In this document: positions 1,199 to 6,114 of the stretch, piece after piece
Numbering within the stretch: the first letter of the stretch is position 1
How the letters are laid out: each line of letters opens with the position of its first letter
Assembly: GCF_013283835.1 (NCBI RefSeq)
Contig: NZ_CP054052.1
Span: forward strand, 2,294,001 to 2,358,000
DNA length: 64,000 nt
Direction of reading: 5' to 3'
Origin: Poseidonibacter lekithochrous
GTDB lineage: Bacteria > Campylobacterota > Campylobacteria > Campylobacterales > Arcobacteraceae
Position numbers and translations under genes: made by a program
The notes under the pieces: generated by a model
Seen by the model: only the letters and a program-made list of their open reading frames with translations
What the model was told of the DNA's origin: nothing
Databases searched by the model: none

Positions 1199-2395
1199 TT
1201 ACTTATAAATTATTTTAAATGTATTATTAGAGTTTTCATAAGAATATTCAAAGATAAAGCCATGTAAATCTAAAACAGATTTAACAATATAAAGTCCTAA
1301 TCCCATCCCATGATTTTTATTGTTTGTTTCATTATGAAAGGGTTTAAAATATTCTTCAATAGGTTTTGAAAGTTTATCTCCCTTTGAGATAAATAATAAA
1401 GAGTTCTCTTCTTGTTTAATAATTATTTTTGAGTCACTTGAGTATTTAAGAGCATTATCAATTAGATTTTTAATTACCATTGCCATTAGTGATAAATCAG
1501 CATTAATTTTTGTATCTTCATTTATAGTCAAATCTATTTTTTCTGAATCTTTATTTATCATTAATAAAATAAAAGCATCATCAAAAATATCAAGCAGAGA
1601 GTGTTTGTGTTTTGTAAGTACATAATTATCACTTAGGACTTGTTCTACTTTTGAAAAATCATTAATCAAAAAATCAAGACGTTCAAAAATTGAAATCATT
1701 CTATCTTTTTGTTTTTCTTCATTTATTAACTCACTAACAATTCTTCCTTTTGCAATTGGCGTTTTTAATTCATGCATAATTGTTCTTAAGAATAATTGTC
1801 TTGAGTTTAAAAGTAAATCAATTTTTTTTACTGCATTATCAAATTCATTTGAGACTTCTGCAATTTCATCTTTTTTATCACTCTTACAATTTATTTGTAA
1901 ATTTCCTTTTGAAAACTCTGTAATATCATTTTTTAGTTTTTTGAGAGGTTGTAAACTTTTGATTAACCATATATAAATTAAAATTAATAAAATTAAAACA
2001 AAAGGGAAAAATACATATAAGTAATTTGTCTTTTTATAATCATGTGTATCTTTAAATAAAATTCTAAAAAAAGGAGTAACCATATGAAAATAATATTCAT
2101 CTTCAAAAAGTATTGTTTCAAAACCTCTTTTAGAAAAAATCATTTCACCTTTAGGAAGAACAATAAATGGTCTTCTTGAAACTTCAAAAGATAAAGTTTC
2201 TAAATATTCAATAACTTCATCTTCTGGTAATCTTTTTTCTTTTAAGTATTTTGAGATTTCTTGATGATAATTTATGATTGGTTTATTCTCTTCTTTTTTA
2301 TCATAATCCAAATAAAATAAAAAAAGAGCTATTAACATTAAAATAGCAATTAGAAATATTAAAGATATTTTTGTTGTTATTGAGTTTAAATTCAT
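1199..2395 (-). CDS. ArsS-like sensor histidine kinase
   Basis: 398-residue membrane histidine kinase. Transmembrane helices lie at about residues 10-29 and 127-146, enclosing a periplasmic sensor of about 95 residues. HAMP-like linker about 147-195; the phospho-accepting His208 is in the motif MHELKTPIAKGRI. The C-terminal ATPase domain has the N box (NLIDNALKYS) and a GLGLYIVKSVLDLHG G box. The H-box wording, including IAKGRI, resembles Campylobacterota ArsS (acid-responsive) kinases. The start overlaps the stop of the upstream regulator gene by 4 bases, so the pair is translationally coupled. The actual stimulus cannot be read from the sequence. Confidence 0.85.
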   Translation of the reverse strand: MNLNSITTKISLIFLIAILMLIALFLFYLDYDKKEENKPIINYHQEISKYLKEKRLPEDEVIEYLETLSFEVSRRPFIVLPKGEMIFSKRGFETILFEDEYYFHMVTPFFRILFKDTHDYKKTNYLYVFFPFVLILLILIYIWLIKSLQPLKKLKNDITEFSKGNLQINCKSDKKDEIAEVSNEFDNAVKKIDLLLNSRQLFLRTIMHELKTPIAKGRIVSELINEEKQKDRMISIFERLDFLINDFSKVEQVLSDNYVLTKHKHSLLDIFDDAFILLMINKDSEKIDLTINEDTKINADLSLMAMVIKNLIDNALKYSSDSKIIIKQEENSLLFISKGDKLSKPIEEYFKPFHNETNNKNHGMGLGLYIVKSVLDLHGFIFEYSYENSNNTFKIIYK

Positions 2396-3057
2396 TGTGA
2401 TAGTTTATATCCTAAACCTCTAATGGAATGTAAGTGTTTTGGATTTTTTGAACTATCTTCAAGTTTACTTCTTAGTCTTCCAATAATTACATTTAGACTT
2501 TTACTATAACTATCACTTAAACTTGTACTTGCATTTACAATTTGTTCTCTTGAAACTATTGCATTTTTATTTTCTAATAAAACTATCATTACTTCATATT
2601 CAGCTTGAGTTAAAATCAATTCTTCTTTTTTGAAAAATATTTTATGTTTTGTTTTATCAAAAATAAAATCACTATTAGCATCTTCTTCTTTATTTATTTT
2701 TTTACTTCGTCTTAACAGACTTTGAATAACAGCATACATTTCTTTTGGATCATAAGGTTTTGGAAGATAATAATCAGCTCCAATTTGTAAACCCATAATC
2801 TTATCACTTACATCAGATCTTGCACTTGAGATTATTATAGGAATATCATATTTTGAAGATATCTCTTTGCATACATCTAGTCCATCCATTCCAGGAAGAG
2901 TTAAATCTAAAATCAATAAATCATAATTAGAAATACCAGCACTTAAACCCAAATAAGGATCTTCATAATTAGTAATTTTAATATTATATTTTTCTAAATA
3001 TTCTCCTAAGAATAAAGAAAATTCTGGATCATCTTCAATCATCAAAATTTCTATCAT
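2392..3057 (-). CDS. OmpR/ArsR-like response regulator
   Basis: 221 residues: receiver domain (about 1-115) with the acidic pair Asp9/Asp10, phospho-acceptor Asp51 (LLILDLTLPGMDG) and conserved Lys in LPKPYD, then an OmpR-type winged-helix DNA-binding domain (about 125-219) ending HSIRGLGYKLSQ. It is the first gene of a two-gene unit with the kinase. Direct GTAAA repeats lie 64-79 bases upstream of its start and recur before the neighbouring DUF1566 gene, consistent with autoregulation. Equivalent to HP0166/ArsR-type regulators by family and by its partner; orthology was not tested. Confidence 0.87.
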   Translation of the reverse strand: MIEILMIEDDPEFSLFLGEYLEKYNIKITNYEDPYLGLSAGISNYDLLILDLTLPGMDGLDVCKEISSKYDIPIIISSARSDVSDKIMGLQIGADYYLPKPYDPKEMYAVIQSLLRRSKKINKEEDANSDFIFDKTKHKIFFKKEELILTQAEYEVMIVLLENKNAIVSREQIVNASTSLSDSYSKSLNVIIGRLRSKLEDSSKNPKHLHSIRGLGYKLSQ

Positions 3058-3110
3058 AAAAATCCTTTGTGTTGTTATTCTAATTCTATTATTTTATTTA
3101 AAACTCAAAA

Positions 3111-3136
3111 TAAATATAAAGTAAATGAAAGTAAAC
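3111..3136 (-). promoter_or_regulatory. Candidate response-regulator direct-repeat site upstream of the regulator gene
   Basis: Read on the plus strand, GTAAA occurs at 3121 and 3131, exactly one 10-bp turn apart, next to TAAATATAAAGTAAAT at 3111-3126. The same 16-mer and further GTAAA repeats lie upstream of the DUF1566 gene (4621-4657). Tandem half-sites spaced 10-11 bp are the usual binding mode of OmpR-family regulators. An AT-rich -10-like element (about 3085-3095) lies closer to the gene. Seen directly: the repeats and spacing. Inferred: binding by the adjacent regulator. Confidence 0.5.
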
Positions 3137-3138
3137 AA

Positions 3139-4575
3139 TTATCTCTTATTTTTTCTAGGTAAAGTTCTTGCTTCATTTGAATCTATAAAACCATCATCAT
3201 TTAAATCATGTCTAGAAAAATTCTCTTGCATTCTTTTTGGAGCTTCTTTATAAGAAATTTTACTATCATTATTTCTATCAAAAAACTTAATAGCTTTCAT
3301 ATTATCATTACCTCTGATAATAGGCACATTTTCATTTAATGCTTTTACAAATGTACGTTTTGTATTAACTTTAGTATAATTATCACTTACACATCTAGCA
3401 AAATTATAAATTCTAACAACATCACCTTGAGGTCCACGCCCCTTAGAAAACTTCATTTTACTTCCACTTTTGGGATCACTTCTTTGTGCACCAGAACCAT
3501 GTACATCTACTAAAGATCTTATATTCAATCTTCTATCATTCATATAACCTAAAGCTCTACCAAAAGATAAATAAACTGCATTAGCTCCTAAATCTTTTCC
3601 ATCTAAATGAGTTGTACTAGACCAATAATATCCATAGTCAATACTGTTATTTTCATTCTTTATTTTTGTACTTTCAAATATATCATTTATACTTGCACTT
3701 GAAGTAGCATTAGGAGATTTTGAGTAATCAACAATGCTTTGTAACTCTTTTGCATTAGGTAATCTCCAAGTACTAATACCAGCATAATTTAAATTCTCAC
3801 AATAAGCTAAAGAGTCTTTCCAATTATAAGGTCCACTATCATTTTTTATCCAAGTAAGAGTTGTTGCTTCATCATAAATAGTACCATTGTTCTTATCAAT
3901 AAACTTATTCTTTCCATACTTAGTATTACCACGAACTAATCTTAAATAATACTTTCCAGGCACTTTAGAATTCACACTATATTTAGGATAACCTTTGATT
4001 CTTCCATCAGCAAAATTAACACCAAAAAAAGTCTTATTTCCATTCATTGTTGTACTAGTGTAATCAGTACTAGTCCAAAATTGAACATCAATATATCTTC
4101 TATCATTAGAGTACTCAAAATCAAAATAATCTGTATTGATATATGGTTTTGCATCACTTGGTACAACATTATTTTTATTTCTTGATGTACCTGTTTTACC
4201 ATTAAAGTCAATTAATGAATATAATTCTTTAACTGTAGGTATTCTCCAATCATTAAAACCACCTATTCTAGCCTCTTTAGCGTATTTTACCGCATCATTA
4301 AAAGAGAGTTTATCTGTATAAGTTTTTTGCCAAATTAAACCAGTTTGTATATCAGTAATAGTACTATTTTTATTATCTTTATATATTACTTTATTGCCAA
4401 TATAAGTAGCATCTTGTCCATAAAAAGCTTCATTGATTTTTGGGCTTTGAATAAAGGTTTTATCATTAAAAAAACTCTTTTGTGAAGTATCCATCACTGT
4501 ATATGTTTGATTTGTATTAGCTAAAGCTAAAATAGAAAAAGTAGAAATGAAAAATGAAGTTTTACTAAGTAGCAT
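3139..4575 (-). CDS. Secreted DUF1566 (Lcl C-terminal-like) protein with EF-hand pair
   Basis: 478 residues with an N-terminal signal peptide (about 1-19, cleavage near LALANTNQ). Two DUF1566-like repeats follow: about 75-215 (TGLIWQKT ... GFNDWRIPTVKELYSLID ... FWTSTDY) and about 230-340 (TTLTWIKND ... STWRLPNAKELQSIVDYS ... YWSSTTH). The C-terminus has two EF-hand loops, Asp433-Glu444 (DRNNDSKISYKE) and Asp457-Glu468 (DLNDDGFIDSNE), which should bind Ca2+. DUF1566 domains occur in surface proteins and adhesins, so an envelope or extracellular location is likely. Upstream it shares direct repeats with the two-component regulator gene that follows on the same strand. The exact function is unknown. 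Confidence 0.8.
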   Translation of the reverse strand: MLLSKTSFFISTFSILALANTNQTYTVMDTSQKSFFNDKTFIQSPKINEAFYGQDATYIGNKVIYKDNKNSTITDIQTGLIWQKTYTDKLSFNDAVKYAKEARIGGFNDWRIPTVKELYSLIDFNGKTGTSRNKNNVVPSDAKPYINTDYFDFEYSNDRRYIDVQFWTSTDYTSTTMNGNKTFFGVNFADGRIKGYPKYSVNSKVPGKYYLRLVRGNTKYGKNKFIDKNNGTIYDEATTLTWIKNDSGPYNWKDSLAYCENLNYAGISTWRLPNAKELQSIVDYSKSPNATSSASINDIFESTKIKNENNSIDYGYYWSSTTHLDGKDLGANAVYLSFGRALGYMNDRRLNIRSLVDVHGSGAQRSDPKSGSKMKFSKGRGPQGDVVRIYNFARCVSDNYTKVNTKRTFVKALNENVPIIRGNDNMKAIKFFDRNNDSKISYKEAPKRMQENFSRHDLNDDGFIDSNEARTLPRKNKR

Positions 4576-4657: not shown

Positions 4658-4689
4658 CTTGATATAGCAATTAGCTTGCTATATCAAGG
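4657..4689 (-). terminator. Terminator of the recombinase-like gene
   Basis: Perfect 14-bp inverted repeat CCTTGATATAGCAA / TTGCTATATCAAGG with a 5-base loop, overlapping the stop codon of the minus-strand gene. In that direction it is followed by TTTACTTTTATTT, a T-rich tail. This is the strongest simple hairpin in this part of the window. Confidence 0.75.
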
Positions 4690-5312
4690 GTATTAGGCAA
4701 ATTTTCTCTTATGTTCCTTTTTTTAACATAATTATTTAAGCCTATGTGGTTATTGTATCCAAGAAGTTTTGCTATTTTTCTAACAGATAAACCAACTGAA
4801 AGTAACTCTTCAATCTTATCTCTTTGTTTATCAAATTTAGATTTTTGTATAGTTCCTTTAGGTTTTCCTAAACTAGCCCCACTTAGTTTTTTTGCAGTTA
4901 ATGCTTCTTTAGTTCTTAGACTCATAAGATCTTTTTCAAGGTCAATAGTCATAGAAATCACACCTAAAATCATTTGTGTTAACATATCTTTATCATCAAC
5001 TAAATCAAGGTTCTGATTAGATACTAAGATTCTAATTTTATTAGAAAGTAAAAATCTTACAATCTCTAAAATAGTTTCAATAGTTCTACCAAAAACATTC
5101 AAATCAGCAACAATAATTGTTGAATTCTTCTCACAGTTTTTAAGTAATTCTAAAATATTTTTCTCATCACTTGGTGTGTTTATTTCAATCTCAATATTTT
5201 CTAAAATATCAATATTATGTTTTTTAACATAAGAATCTAAACTGTCCTTTTGACTATCTGTATATTTTTCATTATTCTTGTTAACTCTGACATATGTAAA
5301 AATCTTTCCCAT
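4671..5312 (-). CDS. Serine-recombinase-family protein with a degenerate active site (probable DNA-binding regulator)
   Basis: 213 residues with the fold pattern of resolvase/invertase proteins: N-terminal domain (about 3-140), long E helix (about 105-135), a GASLGKPKGT linker, then a helix-turn-helix (about 166-200, LSVGLSVRKIAKLLGYNN). The catalytic Ser of the usual RVS motif is Asn11 (YVRVN); Arg9 is kept. The usual LDRLGR becomes LNVFGR, so the Asp and Arg of that motif are Asn72 and Val73 while Arg76 remains. The Ser/Arg pair expected near residues 45-52 reads NTPSDEK. Strand exchange therefore looks impossible. No other mobile-element gene is nearby. Divergent from the ubiX operon. Confidence 0.8.
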   Translation of the reverse strand: MGKIFTYVRVNKNNEKYTDSQKDSLDSYVKKHNIDILENIEIEINTPSDEKNILELLKNCEKNSTIIVADLNVFGRTIETILEIVRFLLSNKIRILVSNQNLDLVDDKDMLTQMILGVISMTIDLEKDLMSLRTKEALTAKKLSGASLGKPKGTIQKSKFDKQRDKIEELLSVGLSVRKIAKLLGYNNHIGLNNYVKKRNIRENLPNTLDIAS

Positions 5313-5443
5313 ATAATAACCTTTAACATAGAGTATAGTACTTTAAATATATGAAAACATAATGTTTATTTAACTACATTTAAAGTTTATACAAAATGTT
5401 AATAGAAAATAACTTAACTTATTCTTAATTAACAATTAAAAAC

Positions 5444-5483
5444 ATGTGTAAATAGTGAATTTAATAGTTATGTCTTTACACAT
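5444..5483. repeat. 9-bp inverted repeat in the divergent intergenic region
   Basis: ATGTGTAAA at 5444-5452 and its exact complement TTTACACAT at 5475-5483, centres 31 bp apart (about three helical turns). It sits between the divergent recombinase-like gene and the ubiX operon. It could be a paired operator or a hairpin in the ubiX leader. The rest of the 246-base gap is plain AT-rich sequence. Confidence 0.4.
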
Positions 5484-5559
5484 AAGCTTATACAGTTTGA
5501 ATTCAAAGCAATTTTTAGCTATTATCTTTTTACTTATAAAACATTAGAAAGGGTTCTTT

Positions 5560-6114
5560 TTGAAAATTACAGTTGCTATATCAGGGGCAAGTGGAGCTAA
5601 TCTGGGACTAAATTTTGTAAAAAAAATTCCAGAAGATATTGAAGTTTATTTAGTTATTTCAAATAGTGCTAAAACTGCATTAAAATTAGAAAGTGGGATT
5701 TCTGTAAAAAAGCAATTCCAAGATAAAAAAAATGTAACTATTTTAAAAGACTCAAATATTGCAGCGCCTATTGCATCAGGGTCTTTCCCTATTGATAAAA
5801 TGATTGTATTACCTTGTTCAATGAACACTCTTGCAAAATGTTCTGTTGGAATATCAGATTCATTAATCACACGAGCTTTTACAGTAATGCTAAAAGAGAA
5901 TAGAGAGATTATTCTTTGTCCAAGAGAATTGCCTTTAAGTTCTATTGCTCTAGAAAATATGCTTAAACTTTCAAAACTTGGTGTAACTATTGCGCCACCA
6001 GTTTTAGGATATTATTCTGGTCAACAAAGTCTAGAAGATATGGAAAACTTTCTAATTGGAAAATGGTTTGACCTATTAAAAATCAAACACAATTTATATA
6101 AAAGATGGGAATAA
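5560..6114 (+). CDS. ubiX: Flavin prenyltransferase UbiX
   Basis: 184 residues, TTG start preceded by AGAAAGGG. UbiX transfers a dimethylallyl group to FMN to make prenylated FMN, the cofactor of UbiD-type decarboxylases (ubiquinone/menaquinone pathway). Motifs: ISGASGANLG nucleotide loop, APIASGSFPIDKMIVLPCSMNTLAK, and LCPRELPLS in the C-terminal half. First gene of a compact seven-gene unit, ending 3 bases before coaD. Length and motifs are normal. Confidence 0.92.
   Translation: MKITVAISGASGANLGLNFVKKIPEDIEVYLVISNSAKTALKLESGISVKKQFQDKKNVTILKDSNIAAPIASGSFPIDKMIVLPCSMNTLAKCSVGISDSLITRAFTVMLKENREIILCPRELPLSSIALENMLKLSKLGVTIAPPVLGYYSGQQSLEDMENFLIGKWFDLLKIKHNLYKRWE

Follow-up and report, generated by a model that had tools for sequence, protein, structure and literature searches.

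Resolvases bound at res repress their own transcription. Such proteins may act without cutting DNA, as is seen in Tn3 resolvase, where catalytically inactive S10A subunits support recombination if they occupy the accessory sites II and III (PMC9943657); an architectural function is thus open to a resolvase that has lost catalysis. The closest intact relatives of the gene described here are the TnpR resolvases of Tn3-family transposons (sampled from Legionella, Rickettsia, Paracaedibacter, Methyloglobulus and others), which share 42-46% identity with its product overall and about 72% in the DNA-binding part, and which also have in common with it the fold, the length, TGTATAA/TTATACA half-sites upstream and divergent orientation relative to the neighboring gene. 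However, TnpR combines a complete active site with a crossover palindrome and, in most cases, a divergent transposase; the Arcobacteraceae gene described here lacks all three and is instead a fixed core gene. DNA invertases of the Gin/Hin/Mpi type have the same small serine recombinase architecture, whereas the Arcobacteraceae protein lacks the catalytic serine and is nearer in sequence to Tn3-type resolvases.

A likeness of another kind is provided by TldR, a derivative of TnpB: here, too, a mobile-element enzyme has lost catalysis and kept DNA recognition, although TldR is an unrelated, RNA-guided protein with shown targets. TldR is named an RNA-guided transcription factor in one report (PMC13418256). 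The literature searched yielded no serine resolvase that persists without its chemistry as a conserved core gene, and in the pertinent passages of a 2022 review on recruited mobile-element genes, serine recombinases figure solely as invertases that are active or in switches based on integration and excision (PMC8987985).

The gene analyzed here is best explained, with a probability of roughly 0.7, as a domesticated, catalytically dead Tn3-type TnpR, which now serves as an autoregulated DNA-binding core protein. What was observed is that catalytic residues are lost, that the gene is vertically inherited, that its domains differ in conservation, that the crossover site is missing and that an array of boxes is conserved; dimerization, binding to these boxes, repression and a second target are putative.

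The gene, its predicted fold and its locus

The gene occupies positions 4671..5312 (minus strand) of the window, a stretch of 64,000 nucleotides from Poseidonibacter lekithochrous, and encodes a protein of 213 amino acids from an ATG start codon, identified by its open reading frame, the Pfam domain Resolvase (E 1.1e-16; HTH_38 matches weakly) and its orthologues. In the fold model (mean pLDDT 86, pTM 0.59), the catalytic domain is followed by a long E helix at residues 110-143 and, at the C-terminus, by an HTH with helices at residues 161-172, 177-184 and 189-198, in line with the claim of an earlier note on this DNA that E helix and HTH are retained. The best PDB matches to the model are the Tn3 and gamma-delta resolvases, with the Tn3 resolvase-site III complex on top (18% identity, TM about 0.44-0.51). 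By sequence, Gin is the sole molecule matched in the PDB, and the match to NCBIfam Mpi stays below threshold (93.7 bits vs. a cut-off of 272). Pfam, the model and the PDB matches agree on the fold of a resolvase, including the E helix and the HTH at the C-terminus.

Matches were found in 99 of 104 Arcobacteraceae genomes, and all are strong (E 4e-41 or better) except for one in genome G028; four of the 98 strong orthologues belong to the divergent genus g6 (42-44% identity). The best matches beyond Arcobacteraceae, at the order level, reach 30-37% identity. At all 79 loci with a readable intergenic region the gene is divergent from ubiX, in the window a ubiX-like flavoprotein gene (5560..6114, plus strand; assigned by Pfam Flavoprotein and synteny), which stands first before coaD, tmk and hisS. 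On the opposite side, syntenic loci usually carry rplI-hslV. In the window, a histidine kinase/response regulator pair and a Lcl_C/EF-hand protein (1199-4575) are located between the gene and rplI; these genes are missing at most syntenic loci and form a variable insertion beside the fixed junction. The exceptions to the locus are g6 and two g7 loci, L110 and L132, and several further loci stop at a contig edge. In the two g6 loci read, the gene lies beside an aroE-like or a SIR2-like gene (named from sequence); the four g6 genomes have kept the protein outside the syntenic locus, and the strict form of the box described below was not found upstream of their genes. As the earlier note had observed for the surroundings of the gene, no transposon or phage genes flank it in the window, and a scan with marker genes gave the same result for the syntenic loci. 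In the tree, all Arcobacteraceae members fall on one side of a branch with 100/99 support and the intact enzymes on the other, with the placement of g6 unsure because of its long branch. As judged by synteny and phylogeny, the gene is a single-copy core gene of Arcobacteraceae, vertically inherited at a fixed locus.

Conservation is unevenly distributed between the domains. Mean pairwise identity within Arcobacteraceae is about 58-59% for residues 1-124 and 88.9% for residues 133-199, which comprise the arm and the HTH (4716..4916, minus strand; delimited by the family identity of about 89% and the model helices). Between Arcobacteraceae and Tn3-type relatives the corresponding values are 26.5% and 71.7%. 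Identity to the window protein over residues 125-199 averages 91.9%, compared with 88.9% for HslV and 70-79% for other neighbors. In Poseidonibacter and a close relative, dN/dS is about 0.11 in the catalytic part and 0.06 in the DNA-binding part, and purifying selection thus acts on both domains, more strongly on the latter. Such selection, vertical inheritance at a fixed locus and a DNA-recognition part that is better conserved than the enzyme part are all as expected of a domesticated gene.

Active site and intact relatives

Residues were compared with 56 intact recombinases (25 of the Tn3 type, 31 from Campylobacterota) and counted in 84 distinct orthologue sequences. The earlier note had proposed that the nucleophilic serine is replaced by Asn11, that the other catalytic Ser/Arg pair is gone, and that the LDRLGR motif, here LNVFGR, has lost its Asp and an Arg. 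The first proposal holds in the comparison: S10 corresponds to Asn11 (codon at 5280..5282, minus strand, placed by alignment), while all 56 intact enzymes have Ser, and position 11 is Asn in 78 orthologues, Ile in three and Ser in three. Likewise, S39 is aligned with Asn45 and R45 with Lys51 (Arg in 56/56 intact enzymes and mostly Lys among the orthologues), the latter in a gapped region, where the alignment is less certain. Within LNVFGR (residues 71-76; 5085..5102, minus strand, by alignment), R68 has become Val73 (Arg in 56/56 intact enzymes, Val in 82/84 orthologues), whereas R71 is retained as Arg76; since the nearest intact relatives read LSRLGR, with Ser in place of Asp, the change from Arg to Val is the only clear catalytic loss in this motif, and the supposed loss of Asp does not stand. 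R119 has been replaced by Lys127 (Arg in 55/56 intact enzymes, Lys in 84/84 orthologues), while R8 and R125 persist as Arg9 and Arg133. R8, R68 and R71 are arginines for which contacts with the scissile phosphate have been reported or proposed (PMC4499144). The losses are not due to chance, because they are common to the orthologue group and dN/dS is low. The alignment thus confirms that the catalytic serine of an active small serine recombinase is missing and its arginine set incomplete, and both changes named in the earlier note, Asn11 and that in LNVFGR, are kept among the orthologues.

That the protein still recombines DNA through an unusual active site is therefore very improbable. The retained arginines R8, R71 and R125 speak for such activity, as do the three sequences with Ser11 and four divergent ones with Ser at the aligned place. 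However, the equivalents of R68 and R119 are missing in 84/84 orthologues and the serine in 81/84, the Arcobacteraceae intergenic regions lack the crossover site (see below), and no intact active site was found among the aligned Arcobacteraceae orthologues; homologues with the intact set, which would have contradicted the note, were found only outside the Arcobacteraceae clade. Because the three Ser11 sequences form a single nested clade and still carry Val73 and Lys127, they look like reversions or drift rather than intact enzymes. Just as improbable are mixed complexes in which the protein would act on an active serine recombinase as its regulatory partner: some Arcobacteraceae genomes do contain active relatives, but no second match to the protein was found in its own Poseidonibacter genome, and the gene is conserved regardless.

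A domesticated TnpR is further suggested by the surroundings of the intact relatives. Many of the nearest ones (L288-L318) are divergent from a long open reading frame, which, where it is about 1000 amino acids long, encodes a Tn3 transposase in 6/6 scanned cases; two shorter divergent frames encode other transposases with an integrase core. Eight records of relatives are on plasmids, four of them typed as conjugative. The divergent gene in Arcobacteraceae is ubiX, in contrast to the Tn3 tnpA of the intact relatives, which argues against a mobile-element context. The sequence AACGnnCGTT or a one-base variant, presumed to be the crossover palindrome, lies upstream of 25/26 intact relatives, commonly flanked by TGTATA and TATACA, and was found in 0/79 Arcobacteraceae intergenic regions. 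Upstream of intact relatives, the TGTATAA box described below is in excess as well (Fisher 6e-7, with loci that are not independent). The Campylobacterota recombinases with 30-37% identity were also considered as the source of the site and rejected, as the box is not enriched upstream of them. Intact recombinases occur in several Campylobacterota families (L140, L150-L153), and where their flanks were read, a similar conserved reading frame is located immediately downstream.

Operator-like boxes at the gene's own promoter

An array of TGTATAA/TTATACA half-sites spans the -10 region and the 5' leader of the gene. In the window, it comprises three candidate boxes, supported by footprint and PWM scan: box 3, AACATAGAGTATAG, in the leader near the start codon (5325..5338, plus strand); box 1, AACATAATGTTTAT, further up in the leader (5356..5369, plus strand); and box 2, which reads TAACATTTTGTATAA on the strand of the gene (5387..5401, minus strand), has the strict Poseidonibacter form and overlaps the presumed -10 of the gene's promoter, TATAAA (5386-5391). 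Across Arcobacteraceae, box 2 hardly varies, and 75/79 intergenic regions have a recognizable copy. With the box-2 matrix, further boxes are detected toward the gene, with a mean best score of 4.3 (shuffles: -5.2, sd 5.3), and cluster about 31 and 62 bp from box 2, i.e., at one and two spacings, where boxes 1 and 3 lie in the window. Dyads of the form TGTATAA...TTATACA with a total length of 31 bp were found in 33/79 promoters vs. 1.8 expected. Owing to the relatedness of the loci, p-values in these comparisons exaggerate independence. In the window, the dyad TGTTTA-N19-TATACA (5363..5393), put forward on the basis of this excess and its sequence, is a candidate resolvase dimer site. Dyads of 29-31 bp are in excess in Arcobacteraceae promoters and those of 33 and 30 bp upstream of intact relatives; since lengths of 21 and 44 bp are in excess likewise, the dyad geometry is not unique.

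Part of the conservation of box 2 may reflect a promoter signal, given its overlap with a presumed extended -10; the nearby presumed ubiX promoter, TTGAAT...TATTAT (5497..5525, plus strand; a conserved block whose assignment is tentative), about 100 bp past box 2, is conserved too. The -10 was rejected as the sole explanation of box 2, since two more boxes, 1 and 3, are located downstream of it, and the ubiX-proximal promoter sequence is little enriched for the box. The latter also bears on a rather unlikely alternative, in which the protein would use the shared intergenic region mainly to control the divergent ubiX-coaD-tmk-hisS operon. While the invariable adjacency to ubiX at the readable loci would fit such control, the boxes cluster on the recombinase side, with about 120 to 210 bp between them and the presumed start point of ubiX, and at L110 and L132, where ubiX is absent, the box stays with the gene. 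Just before the presumed ubiX -35, the palindrome-like TATGTnTTnACACATA and a copy of TTATACA are present (5468-5501), in Poseidonibacter only.

A role as a DNA-binding protein is well supported by these comparisons, because the DNA-binding part is the more conserved one and the gene's own promoter contains an operator-like array that is itself conserved; from this, a function as transcriptional regulator is inferred. The suggestion in the earlier note that a recombinase was converted into a DNA-binding protein gains support on the same grounds. With the cutting site lost and the DNA-gripping part almost unchanged, the protein is thus most likely a DNA-binding regulator that controls itself. 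In the proposed scenario, the TnpR of a Tn3-type transposon would have entered the chromosome before Arcobacteraceae diversified, and would then have lost its strand-cleavage chemistry and stayed as a single-copy core gene. Dimers are most likely still formed through the retained catalytic fold and the E helix, and arm and HTH would bind TGTATAA half-sites that pair up into dyads about 30 bp long. On a presumably res-derived array, which starts at the -10 and almost reaches the start codon, the bound protein would act as an autorepressor of its own transcription.

Candidate targets and implications

The strict box occurs 12 times in ten Poseidonibacter genomes, ten times at the resolvase promoter, and an exact 18-mer searched in 104 genomes likewise occurs mainly there. 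Few strong sites per genome speak against an architectural protein, whose bound dimers would bridge or loop DNA via the resolvase interfaces, with transcription as a side effect. This reading is fairly unlikely, although several points speak for it: the best structural match is an accessory complex (Tn3 resolvase-site III), accessory sites work with catalytically inactive subunits (PMC9943657), and the boxes repeat about every three helical turns; however, a second array to bridge to was not found. Somewhat more doubtful is the domestication of a whole res-type assembly, in which the retained dimer-dimer contacts would link the array to a few other promoters, for instance that of the 138-aa protein described next, as a switch that does not cut.

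The protein would probably control a few other promoters as well, and the best candidate is that of a gene for an uncharacterized 138-aa protein, present in 53/104 Arcobacteraceae genomes. One of the two strict boxes outside the resolvase promoter (G008) lies upstream of its orthologue, as does one exact match in another genus (G039). The box is overrepresented in the promoters of this gene (14/30 at p<0.05); without g10, the box is found in 56% of them vs. 13% of ubiX-proximal sequences, a figure that serves as a lead, since the omission of g10 was chosen post hoc, after the data had been seen. This promoter is therefore a suggestive second candidate target on sequence grounds.

Searches for a larger set of targets gave little. 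A large regulon was rejected, as boxes with one mismatch show no excess in the gene's own genome (85 vs. 110 in the control). Paired boxes in the same or inverted orientation gave few matches in Poseidonibacter, chiefly at the resolvase promoter, and a wider dyad, TGTATAW-N15-18-WTATACA, was weakly enriched (23 vs. 15 control sites). The only recurrent intergenic family of this wider dyad is a 32-bp TGTATA/TATACA site beside a gene for a 62-aa protein in several Poseidonibacter genomes (L377, L378, L382 and L385, near 1501). In the gene's own genome, two copies of TATACAAAATGAAA, with a distance of 34 bp, are located downstream of a gene that resembles ribonucleotide reductase (L179, 1501-1550).

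If a domesticated TnpR is the correct reading, the protein would provide a natural dead resolvase, in which binding and synapsis can be studied apart from cutting. Moreover, it would represent an unrecognized regulator in nearly all Arcobacteraceae, which is likely annotated as a "recombinase".
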